Shown: in pieces, positions 33,184 to 57,150 of the stretch | How the letters are laid out: the number at the start of each line of letters is the position of its first letter | Numbering within the stretch: the stretch's first letter is position 1 | Assembly (NCBI RefSeq): GCF_025399795.1 | Contig: NZ_JAODTZ010000053.1 | Location: 1-64,000, forward strand | DNA from: Streptomyces rhizosphaerihabitans | GTDB taxonomy: Bacteria > Actinomycetota > Actinomycetes > Streptomycetales > Streptomycetaceae | Reading direction: 5' to 3' | DNA length: 64,000 nucleotides | The notes under the pieces: generated by a model | Told to the model about the DNA's origin: nothing | The model's input: the letters and a program-made list of their open reading frames with translations, nothing else | Databases searched by the model: none | Position numbers and translations under genes: made by a program

Positions 33184-34119
33184 TCACGGATGGAGGGTGT
33201 GCCACGGCTGGCGGTCTGGGGCGCCGGCGAGGCAGACCCAGACGTTCTGGCTCGGTCCGGCGGTCTCGAGGTCGTCGAGTGTGGCGGCGCCGAGGGGAAC
33301 GTTGCGTGCGAGGGCGGCGACGAGGGGGTGTTGGGCGGTCATGTCCCTCAGGTCGCTGATCCGGTGGGCGAGCACGTGGGGTGAGGCTCCGGTGAGGATG
33401 AACAGGATCCGGGGGTAGACCGGGTACCAGCGCAGCCACGCGGCGCCGGTCTCGGTGTGCTGGCGTGGGCGTCGGTGGTTGGCGGGTTGTGACGGCTGGG
33501 ACCAGAGCCGGGCGTAGTCGATGAGCTTGGCTGCGAGGCGTTCGCTGCTCATGGTGGCGCGGTCGATTTCGATGAACGCACGGAGTTTTCGGCGTTGTTG
33601 GCCTTCGTTGAGGGTGTAGTGCATGACGGCGTCGGCGATGACGCGTTCGCGCTCGCTGAGCGGGTGGGTCACTTCGGGGGTCCAGTCGAGGTGGCCGTGC
33701 TCGTCGCCGCGTCGGCGGGCGTCGCGGACGAAGGCGAGGTGGGCGCGGACCGCGGTGAGGGTGTGCGGGGTTTTCAGTGATGCGGCGGTGGTCGAGGTGA
33801 TGGGGTAGGGCGGCCGGCCGCGCAGGGCCGGCCAGTTGCGGGTCAGGCGTGCGCCGTCGGGGGTGAGATACCAGGCGCGGCTGCGGTTCGACCGGGGCAG
33901 CACGGTGTAGTCGACCAGGCCGTGTGTGCGCAGTTTGTTGAGCGGTCCGGAGATGGCCTGCCGGGTCGCGTGGGGCCGCAGCAGGATGCGCAGTTGGCTG
34001 GTGGTGGCCATGCGGTGCTGGGCGAGTGCAGCCAGGAGCTGGTGGGGCAGCGGTTCGAGGGGACTGGGTGTGAAGGAGGGCGGCGGCTCGGGCCGGGTCG
34101 GGGGAGAGGCGGTGGTCAT
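33184..34119 (-). CDS. Replication-relaxation family protein
   Basis: The 311-residue protein matches the replication-relaxation family (PF13814): an N-terminal winged helix (LLAALAQHRMATTSQLRILL, then NKLRTHGLVDY) and a C-terminal nuclease-like alpha/beta part (RAFIEIDRATMSSERLAAKL, then WYPVYPRILFILTG). The family is common on actinobacterial plasmids and ICEs and may act at the origin or in DNA processing; its biochemistry is not established. ATG 34119 overlaps the VirD4-like stop (ATGA), so it is the last gene of the transfer operon. Confidence 0.85.
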   Translation of the reverse strand: MTTASPPTRPEPPPSFTPSPLEPLPHQLLAALAQHRMATTSQLRILLRPHATRQAISGPLNKLRTHGLVDYTVLPRSNRSRAWYLTPDGARLTRNWPALRGRPPYPITSTTAASLKTPHTLTAVRAHLAFVRDARRRGDEHGHLDWTPEVTHPLSERERVIADAVMHYTLNEGQQRRKLRAFIEIDRATMSSERLAAKLIDYARLWSQPSQPANHRRPRQHTETGAAWLRWYPVYPRILFILTGASPHVLAHRISDLRDMTAQHPLVAALARNVPLGAATLDDLETAGPSQNVWVCLAGAPDRQPWHTLHP

Positions 34120-41298: not shown

Positions 41299-41649
41299 TC
41301 AGCGCCGCCGTTGCCCAGCGTCGTGCCGCAGCCGCCACACCAGCAGGGCAGCCACAAAAGCACCGGCGGGCACCAGCCGCCACGAGGCACCGGCCCCGTC
41401 CCGGTGGCCAGCGGCGGTGGTGGCTCCGCGCTCGCAGTACGCCTTCGCCGGGCCCACGATCAAGGCGCAGGGATTGTGGTGCGTGGTGGATGTGTCGGCG
41501 GCGAAAGCGTGTCCGGTGTGCGGTCGCGACGCGTCCGGCAGGCCCGCACCGAGGGCGAGGATGACCGCGCCGGCGAGGACGGCGATCACGGTGAGGACGC
41601 TTGCGGCCGTGGCGATGCGTCGGGGGCGGTCCCAGGAAGACGTGGTCAT
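41299..41649 (-). CDS. Small membrane protein in transfer operon
   Basis: The 116-residue protein has a span near residues 15-37 and another near the C-terminus (PAGAFVAALLVWRL), with an outside loop carrying the motif NPCALIVGPAKAYCERG. The same GPAKxYCE theme occurs in the VirB6-like protein (RIRGPAKKYCESS), so the two loops may be related and may make matching disulfides. No family is recognised. It is coupled to the VirB4-like gene by TGATG. Confidence 0.7.
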   Translation of the reverse strand: MTTSSWDRPRRIATAASVLTVIAVLAGAVILALGAGLPDASRPHTGHAFAADTSTTHHNPCALIVGPAKAYCERGATTAAGHRDGAGASWRLVPAGAFVAALLVWRLRHDAGQRRR

Positions 41650-44333
41650 CAGACGTGCTCCTTCGGATGTGCATCCGCGGCCGCACCGGCAGCGGGCACG
41701 AAGGGCGGGGCAGCGCTCGTGCGGCGTCCTGGTGTGGTGGTGATGGAGGTGGTGATGCGCGCGATGCGGGGAATGGAGACCTTGATGCGGCCCGTGTTCT
41801 GCCGCGGGCAGGTCAGCAGGAACTCGCCCTCCCGGCCCTTGCGGCCGACGGGGGACAGGCCGGTGGTCACCAGCCGCAGCAGCTCGCCGTCGGCCGGGTC
41901 GAGCCCGACGAACTCCAGGCCGCGGCGGGCACGTTCACGATCCGCGGTGCGCGCGAGCGCCCGGTAGGCCATCAGGCCCCGGTCCGGGCCGAGTTCCTCG
42001 GCGTCATGGGATGCGGCGAGCAGGCCGGCGCCGTGCTTGCGGCCGTCGTGGAGGATCTCGTGGACCAGGGCGGTGCCCTCGGCGGACGAGGTGAGCCAGT
42101 ACAGCTCGTCCAGGACCACGGCGGTGAACCGCTCGGGGTCCTCGAACGCGGTCTGCCGGGCGATCGCGGCGATCAGGTAGAGCACCGCGCGGCCGATCAG
42201 GGCTTCCAGCGGCTGCTGGTGGAGGACTTCGGGTTTGTCGAACGCGGCTTTCGGGGGCAGCCTCAACCCTGTGGTGGTGATGACGATCATGTCGGAGGTG
42301 CTGGAGGCGTCCAGCCGCACCGGCGGCAGGGCCGGGTCGAACACCATCCGGGCCAGGGAGTTGCCGGCTACGACCCGGACGAGGCCGGCCAGGGTGGCGG
42401 CCGCGTCCTGCCGCTTGCCCGCCTCCCGCACAGCCATCTCCTCAAGGACTACAAGCACGCGGTGCATGGAAGGGGCATCGCCGGCGGCGGCCTGCTCGAC
42501 GGCGTGGTGCAGGACCTCGCCGCTGGTGCTCATCGCACCGATGCCGAGCTGAAGGGTCAGGTAGGACAGGGCGTAGTGGCGGCCCTCGGGACCGTCGAAC
42601 ATCCGCAGCGGATCGATCGACACCTCGGCCCGAGCGGCATCGACGATCTGGACGCGGCCCTTCGCGGCGGTGCGGGCGAAGGTCGCCCATTCGCGCACAG
42701 GGGTGCGGTCGATACAGATCGCGCAGCCTCCGCGCGCCCACACCGCCTCCGCGATCAGTTTCTCCAGGACGCTCTTGCCTGCCCCCAGGTCCCCGACGAT
42801 CCCCATGGACGCGGACGCATCCTGCTTGGGGGCATCCGCAACGTTGATCATCACGGGGCGGGTGGTGCCGCAGTCCAGGTCGATACCGAGGAACATGCCG
42901 TTCGGGTCGCCGACCTCGCCGATGGTGAAGGCGCCGCCCAACGCCCAGTCCTCGGAGACCTGGTGCTGGGTGAACTCCCGCACCACGCCGGGCCGCACCG
43001 TTGCGGGCAGGCCGAGGGTGAACAGGGCCTCCTGCAGGCCGGCCGGGCGCACCGCCCGGTAGTCGGCGCCGCCGAGCAGCGCGGCCAGCGCCCGGGCCCG
43101 CGCGTCGCAGACGGCCGCGGTCGGCCCCCACACCGTCAGCACGGTCACCGACTGCACCTCGACCTCGACCGAAGAGCGTGACAGGCGGGCGTCCAGCTCG
43201 CCCAGATCGCGGGCCGCCTCGGTCAGTGAGGCGGGCATCCCGGTGGGCCGGGCGTCGTACTGGTCGGCCTGGTCGATCAACTCGGTCTTCTTGCGCCGCA
43301 CTTGGTCGCGGGCCTTCTCCGCGGGCACCAGGGTGAGGTCGATCGTGTAGTCGACGGGAAAGTCCAGGCTCTCCAGCTGGGCGAACAGGTCGGCGGCGTC
43401 CTGACTGACCACAGGCGGACACTCGGCCAGCGCCAACTGCGCCTGATAGCCCACGCCGGCTTCGGATTCGACCTGCAGCCAGCGCCGCCTGAGCGGGGAG
43501 GAGGTGTTCAGCCGCCACCAGGAGTTGCGGCCCGACCGCGTGATCTGGCCCGCGCTCTTGAGATCGTCGACGTCGTCGACGGCGGGGTCGATGCCGCCTT
43601 CCTGCAGGCGCACCTGGCCGAGGTCGGCGTAGCTGGGGGAGTGCAGCACGCCCTCGCGGACCCGACCGCCGTACCGTTCGCTCGCTTCGGCCTCGGACAG
43701 CAGTGGCTCCGGCAGACCGCGATGGAGGGTGTGCTGGACCATCCACACGATCTCCGCCGGGCGGGCGGGACGGAAGGCGATCCCGCCGGCGAGCGCTGCT
43801 TCCACGCGGGAGGCCTGCTCGCGGTAGGCGCTCACCTCACGCCGTGCCACCGGCGCGGGCCGGATGCCCAGCGCCGCACCGAGTTCGGCCCACATGGCCC
43901 CGAGCGACGCCGACACCTGCAGGCCGGCTGTCTCGGTCTGCAGCGGTACGGCGAGCCACAGGGTGCGGCGGTGCATCTCCTGGTCGTCCAGCAGGTCCAG
44001 GGTGGCCTCGACGTTCTCCACCCACGGATGCGGGCCGACCTCCGGCGAGGTGCCGGCCGGTTTGATGCCCTCGATCATGCGGAGCGCGATCGCGCCCGGA
44101 TTGACCTGCGCGCACATCCCGTACAGGCGCGGTGCCCCGGTCATGGAGCGCACCATGTGGGTGATCTGGGCGAGCTGTTCGTCTCGCACGGCGGCGGGGA
44201 CGTAGGTGCCCTGAACGGTTTCCTCCGTCCGACCGTGGGCGTCCGGTCCGGGGTGCAGCCGGTAGAGGGCCCACACGCTGCCGTGCGTCGACCAGACCAG
44301 GTGTCCGGCGATGTGCCGGATCGGGATCCTCAC
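41649..44333 (-). CDS. VirB4-like transfer ATPase
   Basis: The 894-residue protein has an N-terminal SCO6880/VirB4-like domain and a C-terminal ATPase with Walker A GDLGAGKSVLEK (near residue 514) and Walker B AVVLDELYWLTS (near 741). Landmarks GKGREGEFLLTCPRQNTG near the end are typical of actinobacterial VirB4. It powers channel assembly and transfer at the inner membrane. The start GTG 44333 overlaps the preceding stop by four bases. A longer upstream frame is a shadow of other genes. Confidence 0.92.
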   Translation of the reverse strand: MRIPIRHIAGHLVWSTHGSVWALYRLHPGPDAHGRTEETVQGTYVPAAVRDEQLAQITHMVRSMTGAPRLYGMCAQVNPGAIALRMIEGIKPAGTSPEVGPHPWVENVEATLDLLDDQEMHRRTLWLAVPLQTETAGLQVSASLGAMWAELGAALGIRPAPVARREVSAYREQASRVEAALAGGIAFRPARPAEIVWMVQHTLHRGLPEPLLSEAEASERYGGRVREGVLHSPSYADLGQVRLQEGGIDPAVDDVDDLKSAGQITRSGRNSWWRLNTSSPLRRRWLQVESEAGVGYQAQLALAECPPVVSQDAADLFAQLESLDFPVDYTIDLTLVPAEKARDQVRRKKTELIDQADQYDARPTGMPASLTEAARDLGELDARLSRSSVEVEVQSVTVLTVWGPTAAVCDARARALAALLGGADYRAVRPAGLQEALFTLGLPATVRPGVVREFTQHQVSEDWALGGAFTIGEVGDPNGMFLGIDLDCGTTRPVMINVADAPKQDASASMGIVGDLGAGKSVLEKLIAEAVWARGGCAICIDRTPVREWATFARTAAKGRVQIVDAARAEVSIDPLRMFDGPEGRHYALSYLTLQLGIGAMSTSGEVLHHAVEQAAAGDAPSMHRVLVVLEEMAVREAGKRQDAAATLAGLVRVVAGNSLARMVFDPALPPVRLDASSTSDMIVITTTGLRLPPKAAFDKPEVLHQQPLEALIGRAVLYLIAAIARQTAFEDPERFTAVVLDELYWLTSSAEGTALVHEILHDGRKHGAGLLAASHDAEELGPDRGLMAYRALARTADRERARRGLEFVGLDPADGELLRLVTTGLSPVGRKGREGEFLLTCPRQNTGRIKVSIPRIARITTSITTTPGRRTSAAPPFVPAAGAAADAHPKEHV

Positions 44334-44905
44334 CGCGCACCTCCCGCCTGCTCGGCGAGGGCGAGCAACTGCTGCACGCCCGACACCGGCGGCGCCGGCG
44401 CCGCGGAGCCTGCCGGCGGCGAGTGCCTGCTTGCCTGCCGGTGCACTGAGGCGGCACTGCGGCGCGGAGTCCGGCTGGCAGGCCACCGAACGGCACCGGC
44501 AAAGTCGCCCGCCGGGGTGGAGGGGAGAGCGTCCTCGATGGTGAAGCCGCCCAGCAGCGGGCGGGGAGCACGGTCGCGTGCGGCGTGGCCGCCGATCCGG
44601 CCTCCGCGAGGCTGCCAGCCCAGCAGCATCCAGCCCAGTGCCGCCTGCATCGGTGCACGGCCCCGGATCTTTGGCCGGCGCATCGCCCAGATCGCCAGCA
44701 GCCAGGCCGCGATCGGGACGGGTCCCATCCAAGACCACCAGCTGATGGTCTTGATGAGCAGGAAGCAGCCGCCCACAGCGACCGCGATCTGTGCTGGGGT
44801 ATACGGGCCGAGCGGGATCTTCCAGTCCGCCACTTTCCCCAGCACCCACGGGTGGCGGCGGGCCGAGGTGTAGAAGCGCCCCACCCGCCCGGCGGCCGCG
44901 CTCAC
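44330..44905 (-). CDS. Small transfer membrane protein (VirB3/PrgI-like place)
   Basis: The 191-residue protein has two close spans near residues 38-75 (YTPAQIAVAVGGCFLLIKT and PVPIAAWLLAIWAMR), then a basic, Pro/Ala-rich cytoplasmic tail. Position just before the VirB4-like gene and the IPLGPYTPAQ motif fit the VirB3/PrgI-like proteins that recruit VirB4. Sequence identity to those families cannot be shown here. Both ends have GTGA overlaps. Confidence 0.72.
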   Translation of the reverse strand: MSAAAGRVGRFYTSARRHPWVLGKVADWKIPLGPYTPAQIAVAVGGCFLLIKTISWWSWMGPVPIAAWLLAIWAMRRPKIRGRAPMQAALGWMLLGWQPRGGRIGGHAARDRAPRPLLGGFTIEDALPSTPAGDFAGAVRWPASRTPRRSAASVHRQASRHSPPAGSAAPAPPVSGVQQLLALAEQAGGAR

Positions 44906-45264
44906 AGCCGGCCTCCCGCACCTGCGGAGGGCTCCCGCACGACGGAACCGGGGTCACGGACGACGGAACCGGGGTCACGGACGATGCCGGGGATCGCGGG
45001 CGCGCCCTTGGCCGGGTTTTTGACCTCGTCCTCGAACATGTCGGCAAGGTCCTGGCGGGAGTTGTACAGCCCCAGCGCGATGATCATCAGCATCAGGGCG
45101 CCGATCCCCGCCTTGAGGCTGAACTTCTGGATCATGATGACGACGACGAGCACGACCAGACCGGCCTGCAGGCCCTTGGTCGCCCACTCCTTGAACATGT
45201 TGATCCAGCTGTCGCCGAGGTCGTTCAGCTCCCCGGCGAGCATCAGACTGTGCACCGTGGTCAC
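44902..45264 (-). CDS. Two-span small transfer protein
   Basis: The 120-residue protein starts at GTG 45264 (GTGA overlap). Two spans near residues 30-70 (LVVLVVVIMIQ and ALMLMIIALGLY) and the size suggest a VirB2-like pilin or a TcpD-type partner. The C-terminus carries a tandem RDPGSVV repeat encoded by an exact 21-base duplication. No signal peptide is clear. The pilin idea is inference from size and place. Confidence 0.7.
   Translation of the reverse strand: MTTVHSLMLAGELNDLGDSWINMFKEWATKGLQAGLVVLVVVIMIQKFSLKAGIGALMLMIIALGLYNSRQDLADMFEDEVKNPAKGAPAIPGIVRDPGSVVRDPGSVVREPSAGAGGRL
44941..44982. repeat. 21-bp tandem duplication in coding sequence
   Basis: The unit gacggaaccggggtcacggac stands at 44941-44961 and again without change at 44962-44982. 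It is in frame and encodes RDPGSVV twice near the C-terminus of the small two-span transfer protein. An exact copy suggests a recent event. Confidence 0.9.
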
Positions 45265-46190
45265 CGGACACCCCCGGCCTGGACATTGCCGGATTCCAGT
45301 CCGGCGACTTCCCACCGGCCGGAGCGGGCCTTCAACACGACCTCGTAGGCCAGCGGCCACCGTCCTCCCGCATCCCGGGCCTCCACCTGGGCAAGGACAC
45401 GCACCCGAGTGCCGTCGCCCGGCATCTGCTCGGCGGCCGCCGCCTTCTCAGCAGCGAGCACCTGCTGCACCACGACCACCGAGTACGGGGAAGGAGAGAC
45501 GGCCGACAGCTTCACCCCGGGCGCGAGGTAGCGGTCCACCTCCCCGGCCCCCGTGAGATACGCGCCGAGGAACTCCCCAACAGCAGAGGCCAGAGCCCCT
45601 TCAGGGACACGCACGCCGTACAACGACGCCGGCACGTCGATCAGGGCAGGGCCAGCCACCACGCCAGGCGCAGCCGTCACCGCGAACGCCGTGCCCGCAC
45701 GGTCCCCAGCGACAGGGACCGCGTAGTAGCGCACCGCTCCGTCGGCGTACTGCGCAGCCACCGTCACCGACCACGCACCGCCCGCGCGCTGCACACTGCG
45801 CACCACGCTCACGGAGGCCAGCTTCGAGGGCGCACCGGGGGCCGGGTCGGGCAGATCGACATCCGGCCCCATCGACTGCACAAACCGCGCCTGCGCACTC
45901 GTGGCGTCATCCGCACTGCTGCGCAACCACGCGCCGAGGAACAGCTGCGCATAGCCGGCCGGGTCAGCGGCGGCCGTGGTGCGCACGGCGGCGGGCCTGG
46001 TGGCCGTGGCCGCCTCAACCGTGGCCGGAGTGGAGGTGATGGCGACACCCAGGGCGACGGGGCCGGCCGCGATGACGGTCCAAAGAGCCAGACGCGAAAG
46101 CCGGACGCGGCGTCGCATCGCCTCCAGCCGGGCCCCCGCAACCATCGGAGCAGCGGCCTCGCTGCCCGAGGCCTGCTTGCCAACAGACAT
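45261..46190 (-). CDS. TcpC/VirB8-like conjugal transfer protein
   Basis: The 309-residue protein has one span near residues 35-58 and two NTF2-like domains outside (YAQLFLGAWLRSSAD, and FLGAYLTGAGEVDRYLAPG), the TcpC family (PF12642) layout. These proteins are the VirB8 counterpart of Gram-positive systems and link channel parts. It is the first gene of the transfer operon. The start ATG 46190 has GGGAG eight bases upstream. The control DNA of the operon lies directly upstream. Confidence 0.88.
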   Translation of the reverse strand: MSVGKQASGSEAAAPMVAGARLEAMRRRVRLSRLALWTVIAAGPVALGVAITSTPATVEAATATRPAAVRTTAAADPAGYAQLFLGAWLRSSADDATSAQARFVQSMGPDVDLPDPAPGAPSKLASVSVVRSVQRAGGAWSVTVAAQYADGAVRYYAVPVAGDRAGTAFAVTAAPGVVAGPALIDVPASLYGVRVPEGALASAVGEFLGAYLTGAGEVDRYLAPGVKLSAVSPSPYSVVVVQQVLAAEKAAAAEQMPGDGTRVRVLAQVEARDAGGRWPLAYEVVLKARSGRWEVAGLESGNVQAGGVR

Positions 46191-46203
46191 GGTCGAACTC
46201 CCA

Positions 46204-46227
46204 GGTCAGAACGTGTACTTGCTGACC
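46204..46227. promoter_or_regulatory. Inverted repeat at transfer operon start
   Basis: The dyad ggtcag-N12-ctgacc lies only 14 bases before the start codon of the first transfer gene. The inner bases contain the palindromic gtac. The place suits an operator that blocks leadership of the operon. The protein that binds it is unknown. Confidence 0.5.
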
Positions 46228-46251
46228 TTGAGAAAACCCGGCGCCCCCGAC

Positions 46252-46345
46252 CCGACCACCGACCACCGGACCCCGACCACGGTCACGATGGGGACACAAA
46301 GCCCGTGGTCGGGCTCATGGTCAGGCCGACCAGGAGCCCGACCAC
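46252..46345. repeat. Cluster of CCGACCAC repeats
   Basis: CCGACCAC occurs in direct orientation at 46252, 46259, 46273 and 46338 and in reverse at 46305, with one near-copy (CCGACCAG) at 46326. Iterated short sites of this kind are usual at origins of transfer or replication and at plasmid operators. The cluster lies between the transfer operon and the nuclease gene. Confidence 0.75.
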
Positions 46346-46347
46346 GG
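46303..46347. other. Hairpin with 14-bp perfect arms
   Basis: The arms ccgtggtcgggctc (46303-46316) and gagcccgaccacgg (46334-46347) are perfect complements with a 17-base spacer that itself can pair partly (tggtc/gacca). A hairpin beside repeats and upstream of transfer genes is the usual form of an oriT. No T-run follows, so a terminator is less likely. Confidence 0.6.
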
Positions 46348-46657
46348 CCCCTGAGGCGGTCACCGTCCTGAGAGCGGCGGGAAGGGGGAACAACCCCGAG
46401 CCTCCGGGCCCAGACGGCAAGTCCTGCGACGGATCGGGGCGCGCATCGCCCCCGGGAGAGATCGCAGCAACGCGGTTGCGCACGGCATGGGCGAGTGCAC
46501 AGCCGATACGCTGACGCTGCCTTCCCGCCTGCGCAGCCGCCCGTACCCGCCCCACTGCGCAGGACTTCGGATCTATTGCGCAGCCACCTGCACAATGAGT
46601 GCCGGCCTCGCTGCGCAACCGCTATTGCGCATCCAGTTCGAGCCCGCGTGGGTCACC
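46334..46657. repeat. Long direct repeat, copy 1
   Basis: About 320 bases match copy 2 (48866-49180) closely, with scattered substitutions and a few indels by eye. The last third is full of TGCGCA-type sites, including an inverted repeat attgcgcag-N4-ctgcacaat at 46575-46596 (one mismatch here, perfect in copy 2). It lies between the transfer operon and the nuclease gene, and no gene is supported inside it. Confidence 0.85.
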
Positions 46658-46862
46658 CGCGATGGCCGCTTCTCGAATCCACCAGGTCGCGAACGTCTCC
46701 GAGGCGCGGTCGTGCACCCCGCTCGCAGCCCGCGAGCCTCTTCGCCGCGTAGGTGGTCCGACTGGTGCTGATCGTTTCTGCGGTGAATTCGGTCGCCCAC
46801 CTGGGGGAGAGTCGCGTGGGGCAGCGGGTATACCGGTATCTGCTGCCGGTACACCCGCATAC

Positions 46863-47594
46863 GTGATCAAGAACATGCTGCGTGCCCTGCCCGCGCTCGC
46901 CCTGTCCATTGTCCCGCTGGCCGCCCCTGCGGCCGCCGCCTCGGCCCGTCCGGCCGCACCACCCCCGGCAGCCGCGGTGTCCGCCGTGCTCCCGGGGGTG
47001 GTGGCGCCACCGTCGGCGGCGGGGGTTCCGTTGTTCGAGGCGCTGTCGTGGATCCAGGAGGCCGAGGAGGGTTCCCGGGACGGCTACAGCCGTGAGCAGT
47101 TCAAGCACTGGAACAAGGGCCTGAACCCGAACGACGGATGCGACACCCGCAAGGAAGTGATCCTGTCCGAGGCGCTGGAGGCGCCGCAGGTGGGGCCGAA
47201 GTGCGCACTCACGGGCGGACGGTGGTACTCGGAGTACGACCAGAAGTGGATCACGGCGGCGAAGGACCTGGACGTCGACCACATGGTCCCGTTGGCCGAA
47301 GCGTGGGACTCGGGAGCGGCCGCCTGGACGGCGGCACGACGGGAGGCGTACGCCAACGACCAGGGCGCGCCGAACAGTCTGATCGCGGTCTCCGGGAGCT
47401 CCAACCGTTCCAAGAGCGACAAGGACCCGGCGGACTGGATGCCGGTGCCGGTGGACCGCTGCAAATACACGATCGACTGGGTCGCGGACAAGCTCCGCTG
47501 GCGCCTGAGCGCGGATGCCGCCGAGCGGCAGGCCCTGGAGCGGTTCGCCGAGCAGTGCCCTGCCGCCACGCTCACCTACCAGCAGGTCCCGTAA
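46863..47594 (+). CDS. Secreted HNH-family nuclease (DUF1524-like)
   Basis: The 243-residue protein begins at GTG 46863 or ATG 46875. It has a signal peptide (LRALPALALSIVPLAAPAAA) and an HNH/DUF1524 domain: DLDVDHMVPLAEAW (His of the motif, near residue 141), then NDQGAPNSLIAVSGSSNRSK and KDPADWMP. Such proteins are actinobacterial secreted DNases or GmrSD-like HNH enzymes. It cuts DNA outside the cell if active. It stands at the border of the transfer operon, between two copies of the long repeat. Confidence 0.85.
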   Translation: MIKNMLRALPALALSIVPLAAPAAAASARPAAPPPAAAVSAVLPGVVAPPSAAGVPLFEALSWIQEAEEGSRDGYSREQFKHWNKGLNPNDGCDTRKEVILSEALEAPQVGPKCALTGGRWYSEYDQKWITAAKDLDVDHMVPLAEAWDSGAAAWTAARREAYANDQGAPNSLIAVSGSSNRSKSDKDPADWMPVPVDRCKYTIDWVADKLRWRLSADAAERQALERFAEQCPAATLTYQQVP

Positions 47595-47744
47595 CAACAC
47601 CCCGCCCGCCGCCTCCCCGCCGCCTCGGCCTCCTGGTTCGCCGGCTGGCGGCACGGTCCCATGCCGCGCATCCGGCCAGTGAGAGCGGGATCTGCAGAGG
47701 GCGTTGCCGACGAAGGCACCAGACCAGAGAACTGAGGGATTGCG

Positions 47745-48566
47745 ATGGCTGTACCCACGCTGTTCGACCAGCAGGCATCCGGCGACAGCACCGAGCGCGC
47801 CTACTGGCTCGCCCGCGCCTGCGACCTGGCCTACAAGGAACGCCCCGTCATCGAGGCACAGGCAACCACATGGGGCTTCTCCCGGGTGCGGCACCACGAG
47901 ACGGCGTTCACCCCGCCGTTCCCGCTCCAGGACACCCAGGCCTACACCATGGCCGGACCCCGTATGGTCGTTACCGCCTTCCGCGGGACCGAACCGGCAC
48001 AGATCAAGGACTGGCTCACCGACGCCAGCACCCCGTCCGCACCTGGCCCGGCCGGTATCGGCTACGTCCACTACGGCTTCGCCGAGGCCCTGGCCTCGAT
48101 CCTGCCGACCGTCCACACAGCGATTGAGGAACTGCGGACCGACGGCCAGCGGGTGTACTTCACCGGACACAGCCTCGGCGGCGCCCTTGCCATGCTGGCC
48201 GCCGCCCACATGTCCCTGGAAGACCCCCAGCTCGCCGCCGACGGCGTCTACACCTACGGCCAGCCCCGCACCTGCGACCGCCTGCTCGCCGCCGCATACA
48301 ACAAGGGTCTCAAAGACCGGGTGTTCCGGTTCGTCAACAACAACGACATCGTCCCGACACTGCCGCCCGAGCCCGCCTTCACTCACGTGGCGGCCCTGCG
48401 CTACCTCGACCACACCGGCAAACTCCACACCGCCACGTCCATGCTGGCGGGCCTGAAGGACAAGGCCGCAGGACTCACCGCAGACGCCTTCGCCCCCGCC
48501 TCGGACGGAATCCGCGACCACTTCATGGCCAGCTACCTGACCGCGCTGGAGAAGAACCTGAGCTGA
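47745..48566 (+). CDS. Class 3 lipase-like alpha/beta hydrolase
   Basis: The 273-residue protein has the lipase (class 3) core: MVVTAFRGTEPAQIKDWL, nucleophile elbow TGHSLGGA (S143), NNNDIVPTLPP (D201) and a probable His in RDHFMASY (near 257). There is no signal peptide, so it should act in the cytoplasm or be released otherwise. It may cut lipid esters. It follows the nuclease by 150 bases and, with it, lies inside the long repeats. Confidence 0.88.
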   Translation: MAVPTLFDQQASGDSTERAYWLARACDLAYKERPVIEAQATTWGFSRVRHHETAFTPPFPLQDTQAYTMAGPRMVVTAFRGTEPAQIKDWLTDASTPSAPGPAGIGYVHYGFAEALASILPTVHTAIEELRTDGQRVYFTGHSLGGALAMLAAAHMSLEDPQLAADGVYTYGQPRTCDRLLAAAYNKGLKDRVFRFVNNNDIVPTLPPEPAFTHVAALRYLDHTGKLHTATSMLAGLKDKAAGLTADAFAPASDGIRDHFMASYLTALEKNLS

Positions 48567-48865
48567 CGGGGAACGGCGCTCGGGGCTCGACCGCGGTTCC
48601 CGAATCCGGGATGTGGTTGCACAGGAACGGACGTGCTTCGCAGCCGGCACGGCCGGTGCCGAGCAACGGAGCTGGGGCAATGCGGATGAGGGGGAGGCCC
48701 CGACTTCTGATGATTGCTCAACCGGTCGCTACCAAGACGCACCACCACCACGGCACCGAGGCTGCAACGGCGGCTCCACTGGAACTCCCCGCCGAGCCCC
48801 TGCCTGCACTGCTCGCGCTTGATCAACACACCACGTGTTGCAACGATCCCTCGAATCCACCCCAT
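48567..48865. other. No gene recognised
   Basis: No supportable gene. A plus-strand frame near 48,613-48,886 is an accident of composition. The stretch connects the lipase gene to the second copy of the long repeat. Confidence 0.4.
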
Positions 48866-49180
48866 GAGCCCGACCACGGCCTCTGAGGCGGTCACTGTCC
48901 TGAGAGCGGCGGGACGGGGGAACAATCCCGAGCCTCTGGGTCCGGCCGGCAAGTCCTGCGACGGATCGGGGCGTGCATCGCCCCCGGGAGGGATCGCAGC
49001 AACGCGGTTGTGCACAGCATGGGCGAGTGTGCAGCCAATACGCTGACGCCGCCTTCCCAACCTGCGCAGCCGCCTACTGCGCGGGACTTCGGATTCATTG
49101 CGCAGCCACCTGCGCAATGAGTGCCACCCTCGCTGCGCAATCGCTATAGCGCATCTGGTTCGAGCGCACGGGGGTCGCGC
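48866..49180. repeat. Long direct repeat, copy 2
   Basis: This segment matches copy 1 (46334-46657) in the same orientation. It keeps the perfect dyad attgcgcag-ccac-ctgcgcaat at 49097-49118 and further TGCGCA sites, but the left hairpin arm found before copy 1 is not present. It lies between the convergent lipase and epimerase genes, so it is not a promoter of either. Confidence 0.85.
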
Positions 49181-49358
49181 CGGTTCGAGCTACTGTGATT
49201 CGGCGTGCCCCCCGTGTGCTCGGAACGTGGGTTCCTTGCCGCAACCGCACGGTTCGCGGCCCTCGTAACGCAGTCCGGCGTTAAAGGAGCGCAGCTACGA
49301 CGGTCCGCCTTTGTTCACGAGAACCGGCACCGGTCCACTTCTTGCTTCTTGTGGTCGT
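49181..49358. other. Short intergenic stretch
   Basis: Nothing supportable is visible apart from the 3' end region of the epimerase gene that reads in from the right. Confidence 0.4.
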
Positions 49359-50342
49359 CTACACAGCGTGGCTCGATTCACCGGCCCGACCCGATGCCGC
49401 ACGAACCGGCCCGGCCCGCTCTACGAGGGACGTAGCGGCCCTCTCCCACTCGGGATACGCGAAAGCGAACCCGGCTGCGCGCAGCCGGCCCGGCACCACC
49501 CGACGGCTCTTGAGCAGCAGCTCCGTGTCCGAGCGCAGCACGAACGCCCCCAACTCGGCCATCCAGCGCGTCGCCGGCAGCCCCACCGGGACGCCCCGGG
49601 CCGTGCGCAGCGCCCGCATGAAGTCGCGGTGCGGAAGGGGTCCGGGCGAGGCGAGGTTCACCGGCCCCTCGAGGTCGTCCCGGGCGATCAGGAACTCCAC
49701 CGCTCGCACGAAGTCCTCGTCATGGATCCAGGAGACGTACTGCGCGCCGCCGGCCACCGGACCGCCCAGCCCGAGTCGCGCCAGCCGCGACAGCACGTCG
49801 AACACACCGCCCCGGTCCGGGCTCATGACCATCGCCGAGCGCAGCGCCACCTTGCGGGTCGCGGGAGTCGGCGCTTCGGCCTGCGCCCGCTCCCAGTTCT
49901 TTGCGATCTCGACGCTGTACGCCCAGTAGTCCGGCACCCCGGCCTCCGAGCCGCCGATCACCCCGGTCGCCTCGTCGTGTGCCGCGTCGAAGCTGTGGGC
50001 GTAGACCGTCGCCGTACTCATCTGCAGCCAGACGCGCGGTGGCCGCGCAGCGGCGGCGATCGCCTCGCCGACCACCCGTGCCGAATCCACCCGGGAGTCC
50101 ATCATGGCTTGCAGGTTCCCGGCGGTGTAGCGGCAGGAGACGCTGCGTCCGGCCAGGTTGATCACGACATCGCAGCCGTCGATCGCCGCGGCCCAGCGGC
50201 CGAGCGTGGCCCCGTCCCATCCGATGTCGTGCGCCCGCACGGGACGCCGGGTCACCACCGTGACCTCGTGGCCGGCCGCCGTCAGCGCACGGTCGAGAAT
50301 CGTGCCCACCTGTCCGGTTCCCCCGGGCAGCACTACCTTCAT
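49359..50342 (-). CDS. TIGR01777-type NAD-dependent epimerase
   Basis: The 327-residue protein is a short-chain-type (SDR39U1/TIGR01777) enzyme: Rossmann motif GGTGQVGTILDRAL, the NLAGRSVSCRYT segment, the STATVYAH catalytic region, and the C-terminal domain (ELGAFVLRSDTELLLKSRRV). The substrate is not known. It starts at ATG 50342 with AGGGGG upstream. It faces away from the AraC gene that ends at 50395 in the same direction, so a shared transcript with AraC is possible. Confidence 0.9.
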   Translation of the reverse strand: MKVVLPGGTGQVGTILDRALTAAGHEVTVVTRRPVRAHDIGWDGATLGRWAAAIDGCDVVINLAGRSVSCRYTAGNLQAMMDSRVDSARVVGEAIAAAARPPRVWLQMSTATVYAHSFDAAHDEATGVIGGSEAGVPDYWAYSVEIAKNWERAQAEAPTPATRKVALRSAMVMSPDRGGVFDVLSRLARLGLGGPVAGGAQYVSWIHDEDFVRAVEFLIARDDLEGPVNLASPGPLPHRDFMRALRTARGVPVGLPATRWMAELGAFVLRSDTELLLKSRRVVPGRLRAAGFAFAYPEWERAATSLVERAGPVRAASGRAGESSHAV

Positions 50343-50394
50343 CGAACCCCCTCGGCTCGCTCGGCATCAGCGTAGCCCCTCATTTTGAACGTGT

Positions 50395-51291
50395 TCAACT
50401 TGGGGGTCCGGTGCGCGTCAGGGCGAGGCGGCCGACGCAGGCGGGCGGATTGGCGGTTGTTCCGCGGGTGGGCCATGCGATGTCGTCAACGGCGAGAAAC
50501 GGTTCGCCGGCCACGGTCGCGGGGGTTGCCCCGGTGAACGCCATGACGTCCCGATGCAGGTGGGACTGGTCGGCGTAGCCGGTGTCGGCCGCGACTTGGG
50601 CCGCGCCTTCACCCGCGACCAGGCGGTGGGCGGCATGGTCGAAGCGGACCAGCTTCACTGCGCGCTTGGGCGGTAGGCCAAGCTGTGACCGGAACCGGGA
50701 CCACAGCCGCTTACGGCTCCACCCGACCTCGGCCGCGAGTTCGTCGACCCGGGCCAGGCCACGGCTGACGGCGATCCTGTGCCAGGCCCAGGCCACCTCC
50801 GGGTCCACCGGAGGCCCCGCCTCATGCCGACGGGCGAGCAGCGCGTCCGCCAACACGAAGCGATCCTGCCACGACGAGACATCGCCGAGTTGTTCGCGGA
50901 TCCGGGACGCCTCCCGGCCCCACAGGTCGCCCAGTGACACGACGGCGCCGTCGAGGTCGGCGGGGGAGACGCCCAGAACCGCGCGTGCGATCACCGGAGA
51001 CAGGCGCACCTGCAAGCACTCGACGTTCTCTCCCCGGGCCCGGACCGCGCCTGCGGACCCGAGCCCGGGCCCGGCGACGATGCTTCCCCGCTCCTGCCGC
51101 CCGTCGGCACAGTCAAGGACGGGCGAACCGGCGCCGAACTCCAGGAGCAGCGTCACGGCCGGGTGCGGGACTATCCGGAGCGCTTCCAGATCACGGACAC
51201 GGAACCCGGCCATGGTGACACCGGCCACCCGGCTGGGCCGCTGCGGGCATGCGACGTCCCACATAGCCGCACCGTGCATGAAAGTCCGCAC
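50395..51291 (-). CDS. AraC-family transcriptional regulator
   Basis: The 298-residue protein has an N-terminal domain of the type PSRVAGVTMAGFRVRD and a C-terminal AraC helix-turn-helix pair (RVDELAAEVGWSRKRLWSRF, then AAQVAADTGYADQSHLHRDVM). It is divergent from the hydrolase/monooxygenase pair and probably controls that pair. ATG 51291 or the inner ATG giving MWDVACPQ may start it. Confidence 0.88.
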   Translation of the reverse strand: MRTFMHGAAMWDVACPQRPSRVAGVTMAGFRVRDLEALRIVPHPAVTLLLEFGAGSPVLDCADGRQERGSIVAGPGLGSAGAVRARGENVECLQVRLSPVIARAVLGVSPADLDGAVVSLGDLWGREASRIREQLGDVSSWQDRFVLADALLARRHEAGPPVDPEVAWAWHRIAVSRGLARVDELAAEVGWSRKRLWSRFRSQLGLPPKRAVKLVRFDHAAHRLVAGEGAAQVAADTGYADQSHLHRDVMAFTGATPATVAGEPFLAVDDIAWPTRGTTANPPACVGRLALTRTGPPS

Positions 51292-51368
51292 CGTCCGATG
51301 CTACGTGAGCCAGTTGGGGGGAACATTCGTCCAATCCACCGGTGGGTACCGGCGGTGACAGTGGGCTC

Positions 51369-52226
51369 ATGACTGTTTCTGACGGCGGGTCGTATGTGAA
51401 CGGCGGCGCCGAGGCTACCGAGAGTTCAATCCTGTCGCTGGACGACGGCGACATCTACGTGTGCCAGGGCGGTCCCCGCGACGCCCCCGCACTTCTGCTC
51501 ATCCACGGGTCCGCGTCCTCGACCCGCTCGTGGGACGCGCTGGTTCCGCTGCTGACCGGATCTCACCGCGTCATCCGGATCGACCTGCTCGGGCACGGCC
51601 GGTCGGCCAAGCCGGCTGACCGCAGCTACGCGATCCCGGACCAGGCACGTCGGGCCGGCGTGGCACTGGACCGGCTCGGTGTCGAGCACGCCGTGGTCGT
51701 CGGTCATTCCAGCGGCGGTGTGGTCGCTGTCGCCCTCGCCGAACAGCGGCCCGATTTGGTGACCGCGCTCGCGCTCGTCAACACCGGACCCGGGCTGGAC
51801 GCCTTCATTGCACCGGAGTCCGCCGCAACCGGGCCCACGCAGTGGCCTCCGACCGACGAGCAGATCCGCCGGTTCGCGAGCACCGCTTTCAGCCGCGAGG
51901 GCTACCAGATCCCGCCAGAGCTCCTGGACGAGGTGCGCTGTATGACCCACCACACATTCACCACGACGATGCGGGCCACCCGCTCCTACCTGGAGCAGCG
52001 GGCGCTGCCAGATCGGCTGGCGGTCCTGGGCAAGCCGCTACTGGTGATCTTCGGCGAGGACGACCGCAGATGGCGATCCTCATCCGCCTTCGATTACCGC
52101 GCCGTTCCGGGCGCGAAGGTCGAGTTGCTGCCCGGTCTCGGGCACTCGCCCCTGCTCGAGGATCCGCCGCGGACTGCCGCCCCCCTGCTGGCCTTCACCG
52201 CGATCCACGCCATCCGGGTGGACTGA
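51369..52226 (+). CDS. Alpha/beta-fold hydrolase
   Basis: The 285-residue protein shows the alpha/beta hydrolase order: LLLIHGSASSTRSW, DLLGHGRS, nucleophile elbow VGHSSGG (S114), acid in GEDDRR (near 229) and GLGHSPLLEDPP (His near 262). It likely cuts an ester or related bond of a small molecule in the cytoplasm. It lies 77 bases from the AraC gene and one base before the monooxygenase frame, so it is co-transcribed with that gene. Confidence 0.9.
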   Translation: MTVSDGGSYVNGGAEATESSILSLDDGDIYVCQGGPRDAPALLLIHGSASSTRSWDALVPLLTGSHRVIRIDLLGHGRSAKPADRSYAIPDQARRAGVALDRLGVEHAVVVGHSSGGVVAVALAEQRPDLVTALALVNTGPGLDAFIAPESAATGPTQWPPTDEQIRRFASTAFSREGYQIPPELLDEVRCMTHHTFTTTMRATRSYLEQRALPDRLAVLGKPLLVIFGEDDRRWRSSSAFDYRAVPGAKVELLPGLGHSPLLEDPPRTAAPLLAFTAIHAIRVD

Positions 52227-52244
52227 ATGAAAAGGAGGGGTGCC

Positions 52245-53504
52245 ATGCGGATTCTCGTCTCCGGCGCCAGCATCGCCGGTCCGGTTCTGGCCTACTGGCT
52301 CACCAGGCACGGCTTCTGTGTCACCGTCGTCGAGCGCGCGCCGGCTCTGCGCAAGACTGGCGGCCACGCGGTCGACCTGTTCCGGCCCGCGATGAACATC
52401 TCGGAGAAGATGGGCGTGCTCCCGCGTATAGAGGAGCGGGCCACCGGCACGAACCGGATGACCCTCTACAAGGAGGGCGCACGGCGCCCCGTCCGGGCGG
52501 ACCTCTCCAAGATCTTCAGCGCCACCTCCGACCGGCACGTCGAGATCATGCGCGACGACCTGAGCGAGATCTACTACGACGCCGCACGCGACGACGTCGA
52601 GTACGTCTTCGGCGACTCGATCACCGCGATCTCGCCCGACGGCGAGGTGCGGTTCGAAAACGCCGCGCCGCGCCGCTTCGACCTCGTCATCGGCGCGGAC
52701 GGGCTGCACTCCAACGTGCGCCGCCTCGTCTTCGACGAGGAGTCCCGCTTCACCGCCTTCATCGGGGCCTACCTCGGGGTGCTGACCCTGCCGAACGTCT
52801 CCGACCTCGACAGCGAACTCCTCATCCACGTCGGCGTCGGCCGCACCGCCGGCATGTACGGCGCGCGACACCTCGGAGACGCGCGGGCGTTGTTCCTGTT
52901 CCGGACCGAGCGCGAGCTCGACTACCACCAGCGCGACGTACCCCGGCAAAAGGAGCTGCTACGCGCTGCGTTCGTCGGCATGCACGCTCACGTGGACCGC
53001 TGGCTGGACGAGCTCGACAGCACCCCGGCGTTCTACTTCGACTCGATCACCCAGCTCCGCATGGACACCTGGTCGCAAGGGAGGGTGACGCTCGTCGGCG
53101 ACGCGGGCTACTGCCCCGGCCCGGCCGTCGGCGGCAGCACCAGCCTGGCCGTCGTCGGCGCCTACGTCCTCGCCGGAGAACTGGCACAGGCGGGCGGCGA
53201 CCACGAGCACGCCTTCCCCGCCTACGAGCGCGTGATGGCGGAGCACGTGCGCGGCAGCCGCGCGGCCGCGCTGAGCGCGGCGAAAACCCTGATCCCCACG
53301 TCCCACCTCGGTGTGTGGGGGCTGGCCCAGGGCGCCCGCCTGATCTCCGCCCTGCCCGCAGGGCCCAGCCGGGCCTTCGTCCGCCTCACCACCAAGAGCG
53401 GACGCCTCTACAACTCCATGACCGTCGACGACTACCCGCCGGCGGCCGCCGCATCAGGAGACCGGGGCGGCCTCGCAGGTGACCCCGGAGGTGGACCAGA
53501 GTAG
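52245..53504 (+). CDS. FAD-dependent monooxygenase (TetX-like type)
   Basis: The 419-residue protein has the flavin monooxygenase pattern: an N-terminal SGASIAGPVLAYWLTRHG (GxGxxG-like), a DG motif (VIGADGLHSNVRR) and the LVGDAGYCPGPAVGGST GD motif near residue 285. It hydroxylates a small aromatic substrate with NAD(P)H and O2. The ATG at 52245, preceded by AAAGGAGG, is the start rather than the ATG at 52227. With the AraC regulator and the hydrolase it makes a small oxidative detoxification or catabolic unit. Confidence 0.92.
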   Translation: MRILVSGASIAGPVLAYWLTRHGFCVTVVERAPALRKTGGHAVDLFRPAMNISEKMGVLPRIEERATGTNRMTLYKEGARRPVRADLSKIFSATSDRHVEIMRDDLSEIYYDAARDDVEYVFGDSITAISPDGEVRFENAAPRRFDLVIGADGLHSNVRRLVFDEESRFTAFIGAYLGVLTLPNVSDLDSELLIHVGVGRTAGMYGARHLGDARALFLFRTERELDYHQRDVPRQKELLRAAFVGMHAHVDRWLDELDSTPAFYFDSITQLRMDTWSQGRVTLVGDAGYCPGPAVGGSTSLAVVGAYVLAGELAQAGGDHEHAFPAYERVMAEHVRGSRAAALSAAKTLIPTSHLGVWGLAQGARLISALPAGPSRAFVRLTTKSGRLYNSMTVDDYPPAAAASGDRGGLAGDPGGGPE

Positions 53505-53698
53505 AGCGGTGGTCGTTGTTGAGTGAGCAGACGAGAGACGTGGATGCATATGAGGCCGCGGACAGTCGCCAGGCTGCGCGGGCGTCGATCGAGGGTCGCA
53601 GTTCCGGTCACGGAAATTCGTCCGGGCGTTCGGCGGCCACGGGATGGCCGATTCGATAGCTCAGCCGGCTGACCCCGTCGAATTCGAGACCGTCATGA
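53505..53698. other. No gene recognised
   Basis: A short GC-rich stretch after the monooxygenase. No hairpin with clear arms or gene is seen. Confidence 0.4.
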
Positions 53699-54109
53699 CC
53701 ACACCGGCCGTCCAAGCCGCGTGATCGAACCTGCCACCCAAACCTGCAGCAGACCCGCTCCTCGGTTGCCCAGTACGTCGACACTGCCTGGCGCTGGAGC
53801 GCGGCGATCCAGATCCTCCGGAAGATCGAGGAACCTGCATACACGGCTTCAGAAGCGGACTATGTCCGCCACTACGACCGTCTCTACACATGCGTGGAGC
53901 TTGTAGGGGACGCCGCACGACGCCTCGACCATGCAGTCACGGCTGAGGATCCTCAGTCTGTCTGGATCGAGCTGATTCGCGAGAACTCCATCAGACCTGG
54001 CAGTCCCGAGCCTTCACGGAACTGCGGTAGATCCCATTTCACAGATCCTCATCAGCCCGTGGTCGGGCCGGCCATACGGCAACCCGGTGTGCATGGTGCA
54101 GGATCGTGA
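53699..54109 (+). pseudogene. Uncharacterised coding-like fragment
   Basis: An uninterrupted frame of about 135 codons reads VAQYVDTAWRWSAAIQILRK, ASEADYVRHYDRLYTCVELVG and DPQSVWIELIRENS. The amphipathic helices and codon use look real, but the only in-frame starts are late (GTG 53894). I take it as a 5'-truncated gene of unknown family. It is not related in sequence to the neighbours. Confidence 0.35.
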
Positions 54110-54274
54110 CCGGTGGTCGGGGGCTGTGGCCGCCAGTCTGGTCGGGGGCGCCCGGTGAGCTGACCGCATGGATCTCGCGTACGTCTCCTTACTCGGCGGC
54201 CCCGGCTGCCTCGGGCCCGTAGCGCGCACCCAGGGTGTCTGCGGCCGCGGGTTCATGGCGGGCGAGGCGGCACG
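54110..54274. other. Upstream region of the replication-like gene
   Basis: This is a non-coding stretch before the tandem winged-helix gene. No clear promoter hexamers stand out. Confidence 0.3.
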
Positions 54275-55735: not shown

Positions 55736-57150
55736 CCACCTCTGCCCCGCTGTCCAGGATCACTCAGCCGCTGAGCCCGTTCGGGCAGCAGCCCAGGCGA
55801 TGGGAGAAGAAGCGGGTCCGCGCGGTGCGCGGCAGCCACGCCTGCACCGGCTGCGCAGCCGGCTGCGAGCCTGTCCTGATCCGGGAGCAGACCGGATGGG
55901 GGTGGATCGACTGGAACGTCCCGGTCGACGGCAGCCTGCCCGAACAGCCCCACCGGATCGCCGTGTTCACTCCAATCGCGACCCGCATGCAGCGCCTTTG
56001 CCTGCGCTGGCTGGCCAGAAGCTCCGCACACCGGATCCGCCTCGACCCGGTTGCCGTACGGACCACTACAGCCGCCGTCGCTGCCCTCGCGCTGCCGGCG
56101 GCCGTCCTCGCGATCCTGCACGGCGTCCCCTTCGCCATCGTGCTGCTCGCAGCTGCCCTGGCCCCGCTCCTCGTGGAGCACTCGAGTAACCCGCTGAAGG
56201 CCCGTGCCGGCGAAAACGTCTGGATCGTCGAGGCCGAAGCCGCCTGCCGCTACCTGCAGCGCCTCGCCGCTTTGCACGCCGGCCTCGTCCGGGCAGCCGC
56301 CGGCAGCGACCGTCACGAAGTGCGGCGCGCCGTCGAGATCGGCCACCACCAGCTGTTCGACACCGCGGACCTGCTCCAGCGCCACGACACCCGCTCAGCC
56401 TCCGGCGAGCTCATCGCCCGGGAGCAGCTGATGCTGCAACTCGCCGTCCAGATCCGCCACATCGTCACGCCCGCGCAGGGCGGCGCACCGTCCGTCCGGC
56501 ACGACCGGGCCGACGTACCTCAGCCGCTGGGCCCCTATCCGCCCAGGCCCCGCCACTCATCCGGTCATTCGACGCCCATCGCGTCGATGAAGGAGGAAAC
56601 GTACATGCCCCAGGACGGTCCCGAAGAGCCGGCCCGCCAGGTGTATCTGCTCTTCGCCCACGAGGCCTACTACCCGGCTGCCGCCCGGGAGATCAACACC
56701 TCGCTGGTGGCTGCAGCCTCCCTGCTCCACCCGCGCGTACGGCAGCCCGACGGCGCCCGCATCTACGACCGTCTGGTCCGCGGCCGACGGCAGGGCGAGA
56801 TCGTGCCGCTGTCCACTCTCACCCACGAACTGGACGGCGGTGCGCGCTGGCCGGAGGTCGGCGACTGGGAGGCGGTCACCGCAGACCTGCTCCAGCTCAT
56901 CCAGGACCGGGCATGCGACGTCCTCAGTCTGGATCTGCCCCACGTCGCCCGTGCCCTGGTGTGCTCCGGTCCCCACAGCCGAGTCCGGGCGTACGACCCG
57001 GCGGCCGGGCGGTACCAGACGTGGGGGCCCGCCGACCGGATCCAGGTCCTGGTCGAGGTGGGCAGGCAATTGGCCGTGGCAGAGGCGGCGCGCGCCCTGT
57101 GGCCGGGTGCCGGTCTGCTCCTGCCCACCCATCCCGGCGATGACAAATGA
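55732..57150 (+). CDS. Membrane protein joined in frame to a second unknown domain
   Basis: The open frame of 472 residues seems to hold two proteins. The first (to about residue 285) has an N-terminal CTGCAAGC motif, two spans near 110-145 (TTAAVAALALPAAVLAILHG) and a cytoplasmic helical part. The second (from about 292, MPQDGPEEPARQVYLLFAHE) is a soluble domain with YDRLVRGRRQGEIVPLSTL. A strong AAGGAGG lies at 56590-56596, eight bases before an in-frame ATG at 56605. No stop separates them. Thus either one fused protein is made or a second product starts inside. Confidence 0.6.
   Translation: MTTSAPLSRITQPLSPFGQQPRRWEKKRVRAVRGSHACTGCAAGCEPVLIREQTGWGWIDWNVPVDGSLPEQPHRIAVFTPIATRMQRLCLRWLARSSAHRIRLDPVAVRTTTAAVAALALPAAVLAILHGVPFAIVLLAAALAPLLVEHSSNPLKARAGENVWIVEAEAACRYLQRLAALHAGLVRAAAGSDRHEVRRAVEIGHHQLFDTADLLQRHDTRSASGELIAREQLMLQLAVQIRHIVTPAQGGAPSVRHDRADVPQPLGPYPPRPRHSSGHSTPIASMKEETYMPQDGPEEPARQVYLLFAHEAYYPAAAREINTSLVAAASLLHPRVRQPDGARIYDRLVRGRRQGEIVPLSTLTHELDGGARWPEVGDWEAVTADLLQLIQDRACDVLSLDLPHVARALVCSGPHSRVRAYDPAAGRYQTWGPADRIQVLVEVGRQLAVAEAARALWPGAGLLLPTHPGDDK

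Follow-up and report, generated by a model that had tools for sequence, protein, structure and literature searches.

Two direct repeats in a Streptomyces rhizosphaerihabitans contig as copies of a conserved TGCGCA array, a probable transfer control region of Streptomyces conjugative plasmids

A conserved region beside the transfer genes

The first 64,000 nucleotides of contig NZ_JAODTZ010000053.1 of Streptomyces rhizosphaerihabitans (assembly GCF_025399795.1), hereafter the window, contain two non-coding direct repeats on either side of a nuclease gene and a lipase gene. These repeats are two copies of a conserved control region beside transfer genes and not an attachment (att), partition (par) or origin (ori) repeat specific to that cassette. 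The same sequence occurs in about 60 Streptomyces plasmids and genomes, where it is the ~700-bp region between a divergent tcpC operon and a gene for a double winged-helix protein, HTH_36. We consider it probable, at roughly 60%, that the repeats represent the duplicated control region of a Streptomyces conjugative plasmid of the type IV secretion system (T4SS) type, which would be bound by HTH_36, would control the transfer operon and was split by insertions.

The components of the region in the window are as follows, where L numbers denote loci in other plasmids and genomes.

45261-46190, minus strand: tcpC-like gene, the first gene of the conjugation operon (Pfam TpcC, E 3e-9)
45751-45985: array II, six TGCGCA sites within the coding part of tcpC, their positions constant from plasmid to plasmid
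46191-46329: promoter/operator part of the native control region on the tcpC side, in which GTGGTCGG/CCGACCAC operators are repeated, aligned to the intact intergenics of L003-L006, L026-L029 and L099
46330-46659: copy 1, the native TGCGCA array, with sites at 46477, 46530, 46556, 46577, 46612 and 46626; equivalent to ~128-457 of the L099 intergenic
46575-46596: dyad of copy 1, two neighbouring array sites spaced 12 bp, the second carrying a mutation to TGCACA
48862-49176: copy 2, a partial second array, with sites at 49063, 49099, 49111 and 49134; equivalent to L099 ~128-450
49097-49118: perfect dyad of copy 2, ATTGCGCAGCCACCTGCGCAAT, two neighbouring array sites
54054-54274: HTH_36-side half of the native control region, equivalent to L099 454-682
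54275-55735, plus strand: HTH_36 gene, with two tandem winged-helix domains and a Cys-rich C-terminus; candidate array-binding protein

The repeats were located at 46330-46654 and 48862-49176 in the same orientation, and a BLAST alignment of copy 1 against copy 2 gave 86.5% identity over 326 columns (E ~1e-111), with 282 of the 314 ungapped positions (89.8%) identical. A repeat search of 45000-51000 resolved two blocks separated by a small gap, 46330-46526 with 48862-49058 at 91% and 46551-46654 with 49073-49176 at 87%. Only these two places matched when the whole 10.2-Mb assembly was searched with the repeat. The description of the first-pass annotation, made from the letters of the window, was thus borne out: it had reported two similar non-coding copies in one orientation, with clustered TGCGCA sites, around a nuclease and a lipase. 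Copy 1 contains six sites (46477-46626) and copy 2 contains four (49063-49134), with a further six in tcpC, and genes for a GmrSD_C (HNH-type) nuclease and a class-3 lipase lie between 46654 and 48862. Copy 1 belongs to a longer conserved stretch that starts at 46191 and makes up the entire tcpC upstream region.

The dyad TTGCGCAG-N4-CTGCGCAA, which had been described as shared by the copies and perfect in the second, is matched exactly in copy 2 and with one mismatch in copy 1, and it can now be described as two adjacent array sites, each of which is itself palindromic. Allowing up to 3 mismatches, the dyad matched 3 times in the window against 0.54 expected. An RNA family search of the window gave no match.

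Conservation across Streptomyces plasmids

The first-pass annotation had suggested looking for the repeat alone in other genomes, and single copies without the cassette were indeed found in dozens of plasmids. When 393 genomes of the genus were searched at the DNA level, diverged single copies were found, the stronger of which lay between tcpC and an HTH_36 gene, while a DNA search of PLSDB with the repeat had no match, the array region probably being too diverged. The relatives of the repeat were reached by the genome DNA search together with tcpC synteny. A tblastn search with the tcpC product found 112 plasmid records, all from Streptomyces or Kitasatospora, and the tcpC-bearing records examined in full detail were nearly all large linear plasmids. 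A profile search of 84,980 genomes identified 66 loci, with tcpC within reach in 49 of them.

Gene order in the plasmids was constant and ran from the tcpC operon through ~700 bp to the divergent HTH_36 gene and a conserved gene B. Alignment of 13 intact intergenics revealed a TGCGCA array in the middle and a conserved promoter/operator block at each end. In 41 loci with a short intergenic the mean number of TGCGCA sites was 7.5 in the intergenic and 7.8 in tcpC, a density of 9.0/kb compared with 0.47/kb in the flanks. The GTGGTCGG/CCGACCAC operators were similarly concentrated, at 9.2/kb in intergenics and 0.25/kb elsewhere. Site spacings in 26 loci were mostly 12-14, 19-26 and 33-37 bp. Over 100 kb of NZ_CP109230, the reference plasmid, no other palindromic hexamer clustered nearly as tightly as TGCGCA, which reached 9 sites per 250 bp against 5 for the next best. 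The features that mark such a control region in TcpC-type Streptomyces conjugative plasmids, namely a divergent tcpC, an HTH_36 gene opposite and TGCGCA sites both in the intergenic and in tcpC, were all found. The HTH_36 gene of the window is mostly 60-85% identical to its relatives and is now displaced by insertions.

TGCGCA sites within tcpC

The TGCGCA sites in tcpC are under DNA-level selection. They lie ~206, 243, 269, 297, 312, 360, 392, 399 and 438 nt from the start of the gene, positions which are constant among relatives. Nine sites were present in the tcpC genes of L026, L028 and L003 compared with ~0.9 in 1000 synonymous-codon shuffles (maximum 4), and the six sites in the tcpC of the window compare with 0.7 in synonymous shuffles. 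Codon homozygosity was 0.87 at the sites and 0.70 elsewhere (p = 3e-5), and the T-ending codons found there (TAT, AGT, GCT) were fixed or nearly so across the family. The excess over synonymous shuffles together with the uniform codon choice indicates that the sites are selected as a DNA word and not for the protein alone.

The first-pass annotation was right in seeing plasmid-borne, functional-looking non-coding repeats with clustered palindromes, and duplication was among its proposals. Its suggestion of a recombinase target that lets the cassette loop out is not supported. Direct repeats that bracket a cassette and contain dyads do resemble att- or res-like sites for excision of the HNH-lipase segment, but this function is highly improbable, as the array is single and cassette-free in most relatives and has a companion array in coding sequence under codon-level selection. 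In addition, the edges of copy 2 coincide with an IS30-family end and another dispersed repeat, the scan of window genes recognised transposases only and neither an integrase nor a resolvase, and no tRNA gene that might serve as an att candidate was found in the window.

A candidate array-binding protein and proposed transfer control

On sequence grounds, the array is most likely a multi-site binding region for a plasmid DNA-binding protein controlling transfer, and its binder is probably the winged-helix HTH_36 protein. The HTH_36 product has two similar winged-helix halves, which match phage families of replication initiation and helix-turn-helix DNA-binding proteins. Structure prediction placed separate winged-helix domains at residues 15-100 and 141-225, with predicted local distance difference test (pLDDT) values mostly of 65-87, while the model as a whole was poor (mean 57). 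A sequence search of solved structures with the protein returned none, and a structure search with the model gave weak winged-helix matches (best SarS, E 0.03) which were not used as functional evidence. Judging from the model, two equivalent domains in one chain would suit a palindrome, with one domain per half-site.

The region would then comprise two promoter/operator blocks, built of GTGGTCGG/CCGACCAC repeats, with seven to nine palindromic TGCGCA sites between them and up to nine more in tcpC. A plasmid protein, most likely the HTH_36 product, would coat both arrays across the tcpC promoter, and the resulting nucleoprotein array would repress, couple or time the transfer operon and the HTH_36 gene. 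It is possible that the array also marks DNA for transfer. In L170 a relative of HTH_36 is encoded right after a relaxase-like gene of the transfer operon.

Several observations weigh against HTH_36 as the protein that reads the array. L166 has a TGCGCA array and no HTH_36 relative within 4 kb or among the 60 plasmid matches listed, while L140 has HTH_36 and zero intergenic sites. L034 and L110 have TGTGCA in place of TGCGCA, and in L167 (NZ_CP109170), whose tcpC is 37% identical, ACCGGT is enriched instead upstream of tcpC with 14 sites. In view of these exceptions the binder may be another plasmid protein. The motif swap in L034, where the intergenic array upstream of tcpC contains TGTGCA (11) and TGCACA (5), suggests a concerted change of the array motif.

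Two other features of these plasmids were recorded. In NZ_CP109230 the DUF2637 gene has a third TGCGCA cluster at its end and just beyond (L097:33529-33837), and the counterpart of this cluster in the window (~19793-20016) is nearly lost, with one site at 19883. A DNA cytosine methyltransferase gene is located a few kb from tcpC in L026, L028 and L169.

Comparison with known plasmid systems

The nearest published parallel is SpdA2/sps of pIJ101, in which a plasmid protein binds palindromes within coding sequence and affects segregational stability (PMC4170104). Like sps in pIJ101 and other Streptomyces plasmids (PMC4170104), the sites described here are repeated palindromes of a conjugative plasmid, partly coding, conserved as DNA and putatively read by a plasmid protein. 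However, sps is 12 bp long with 2-3 copies in or near spdA, whereas the present sites have a 6-bp core and number up to ~18, arranged as two arrays on either side of the tcpC promoter in a T4SS operon. The region is further set apart from SpdA/sps in that its TGCGCA sites lie in tcpC and the intergenic, and no SpdA homologue was identified.

Iteron or operator arrays with a winged-helix Rep also offer a likeness, as a cluster of short sites lies upstream of a gene for a protein with two winged helices whose domain resembles replication initiators. On such a reading the array would be an iteron replication origin, HTH_36 its initiator and the duplicate a second partial origin. We regard this as unlikely, although an origin is usually laid out as a cluster of sites upstream of a rep-like gene, the winged-helix domains match phage and plasmid replication-initiation families and an HTH_36 homologue adjoins dnaB in L171. 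Iterons are direct repeats of ~20 bp, while the sites here are palindromic hexamers with mixed spacing, linked to a transfer operon and with a second array in tcpC. The third cluster near the DUF2637 gene of the reference plasmid, the other typed replicons carried by several array plasmids and the linkage to transfer genes seen in L170 also argue against an origin.

The clt loci or TRS of Streptomyces plasmids are 8-bp direct repeats read by the FtsK-like TraB. They are likewise plasmid-specific repeat clusters tied to transfer, but the present operon is of the VirB4/TcpC type and its sites are palindromic.

In SCP1, ParB CTPases bind partition sites that are inverted repeats of 13 and 19 bp (PMC13245405), and like these ParABS centromeres the array is a multi-site element on giant linear Streptomyces plasmids. 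Clusters of short palindromes are typical of plasmid centromeres and the coding-region palindrome of pIJ101 acts in segregational stability (PMC4170104), so that the array could be a partition or incompatibility site of which two copies raise stability or incompatibility. This is quite unlikely. The parS1 and parS2 elements of SCP1 each consist of three inverted repeats, of 13 or 19 bp, around parAB (PMC13245405), while here parAB is not adjacent: no parA or parB was found next to the array in the window or in the annotated plasmid loci, the ParA gene was not adjacent in the loci examined and a ParB gene is ~30 kb distant in L098. For partition SCP1, where a related conjugation ATPase is encoded (PMC9195940), relies on ParB and on two kinds of parS site, three of 13 bp and three of 19 bp (PMC13245405). 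The array is linked to tcpC. A role in partition or as an origin is possible but less probable than control of transfer.

Plasmid pI of S. mirabilis has been noted to carry TcpC and a related ATPase, and a linear S. coelicolor plasmid to carry a TcpC homologue (PMC9195940); the passages of that paper that concern TcpC do not describe a control region alongside it.

A probable history of duplication and insertion

The ancestral layout was seen in L099 (Streptomyces sp. NBC_00568), the closest relative with an intact region, where HTH_36 and tcpC are 85% and 89% identical to those of the window. Copy 1 with its left side corresponds to L099 1-457. As copy 2 corresponds to 128-450 and 54054-54274 to 454-682, copy 2 was once continuous with the HTH_36 promoter, and the 4.9 kb of 49177-54053 were inserted later. 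The location of copy 2 between convergent genes, from which it had been concluded that it does not serve as a promoter, is thus correct for the present state but not for the original one, having been created by the later insertion. The conclusion itself was misleading, since the tcpC operon has copy 1 as its native upstream region and copy 2 adjoined the HTH_36 promoter before the insertion.

46660-48861: first insertion, which parts copies 1 and 2 and contains the HNH (GmrSD_C) gene, the lipase gene and an IS30 remnant
48773-48861, plus strand: IS30-family right-end remnant, its terminus abutting copy 2
49177-54053: second insertion, a mosaic that separates copy 2 from the HTH_36 promoter, with a dispersed-repeat fragment (49176-49314), an epimerase-family gene and an AraC-hydrolase-FAD monooxygenase block

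The insertion boundaries were well defined. The DNA between the copies stops exactly at the terminus of the IS30-family remnant, which is the start of copy 2, and the other boundary of copy 2 coincides with another dispersed repeat. The fragment at 49176-49314, which recurs in a dozen genomes, belongs to a ~400-bp dispersed repeat of many Streptomyces genomes (L086-L092). In the second insertion the epimerase-family gene is up to 96% identical to copies elsewhere, and the three-gene block (AraC, hydrolase, monooxygenase) is 90% identical to NZ_CP109471. Direct-repeat operators lie on either side of the array in L099 (115-148 and 456-488), and the boundaries of the copies fall in or at an operator.

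These sequence relationships would fit a tandem duplication between operators followed by insertion into the middle operator. The array would have been duplicated in tandem, plausibly via unequal exchange between the flanking direct-repeat operators, and the HNH-lipase DNA with its IS30 element would then have been inserted into the middle operator between the copies. The second mosaic insertion would later have parted copy 2 from the HTH_36 promoter. Copy 2 would be a leftover, partly decayed array that may still bind the protein.

It is conceivable, though we lean against it, that copy 2 and the cargo were acquired together, through a single crossover at the array with a related plasmid and not by tandem duplication, which would alter the history only. 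The copies differ by 10%, which is much for a recent duplication, and in L105 and L118 cargo likewise lies between two diverged arrays. However, the copies share more identity with each other (89.8%) than with L099 (80% and 78%), copy 2 meets the HTH_36 half at the expected base and an IS30 terminus stands at the junction. Three points count against the history of tandem duplication and insertion set out above: the duplication step was not directly seen, the endpoints of the duplicated arrays around cargo in L105 and L118 differ, and the 12-mer CTCGAATCCACC at 46674-46685, just past copy 1 and in the same orientation, is identical to the IS30 terminus at 48851-48862 and does not fit a simple insertion history. 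A transposon with target duplication, considered from the occurrences of CTCGAATCCACC at 46674 and 48851, was rejected because the second is the IS30 terminus.

Insertions were also present on the HTH_36 side of the array in several other loci. Together with the cargo between the arrays of L105 and L118, this marks the region as a recurrent landing place. In L105:1765-3616 (S. brasiliensis) two PIN-domain toxin genes, one with a Phd/YefM-like antitoxin, are located between the duplicated arrays.

Other genes in the window

The minus-strand conjugation operon left of copy 1 encodes the tcpC-like protein, a VirB4-type ATPase, an NlpC/P60 lytic protein and a replication-relaxation protein, and farther left are TadE, T2SSF, T2SSE and DUF2637 genes.

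33184-34119, minus strand: replication-relaxation family protein of the transfer operon (family match)
41649-44978, minus strand: VirB4-type conjugation ATPase (AAA_10; weakly similar to NCBIfam TcpF)
46875-47594, plus strand: HNH/GmrSD_C-type nuclease gene, probable secreted protein (Pfam PF07510, E 6e-9), with many plasmid relatives
47745-48566, plus strand: class 3 lipase gene (Pfam PF01764, E 9e-30)
55780-57126, plus strand: conserved gene B, which follows HTH_36 in relatives too

A defence-system library contained no match for the HNH or lipase genes. A pattern search of genome contigs with the HNH protein gave no match, though plasmids hold many relatives. An AbiEi/AbiEii-type toxin-antitoxin (abortive infection) pair is encoded at 11717-13356 on the minus strand.

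Conclusions

The conserved array is apparently an undescribed plasmid control element. No description of such an array was found in the open full-text literature, a scope outside which most subscription papers fall. We tentatively extend the proposal to T4SS-type Streptomyces plasmids in general, which may carry a lineage-specific palindromic array (TGCGCA, or TGTGCA or ACCGGT elsewhere) that spans the tcpC promoter into tcpC, is read by a single-chain double winged-helix protein and acts as an element of plasmid identity and transfer control, with flanks that repeatedly capture cargo between duplicated arrays.

The chief value of the finding is the conserved array that it exposed and not the cassette. 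The duplicated copies show that the edges of the array accept cargo genes, and the array can serve as a computational marker for the TcpC-type plasmid family. Control of T4SS-type conjugation operons in giant Streptomyces plasmids appears to be largely unstudied, and a DNA-selected array inside a transfer gene provides a testable handle on control, plasmid identity and compatibility.

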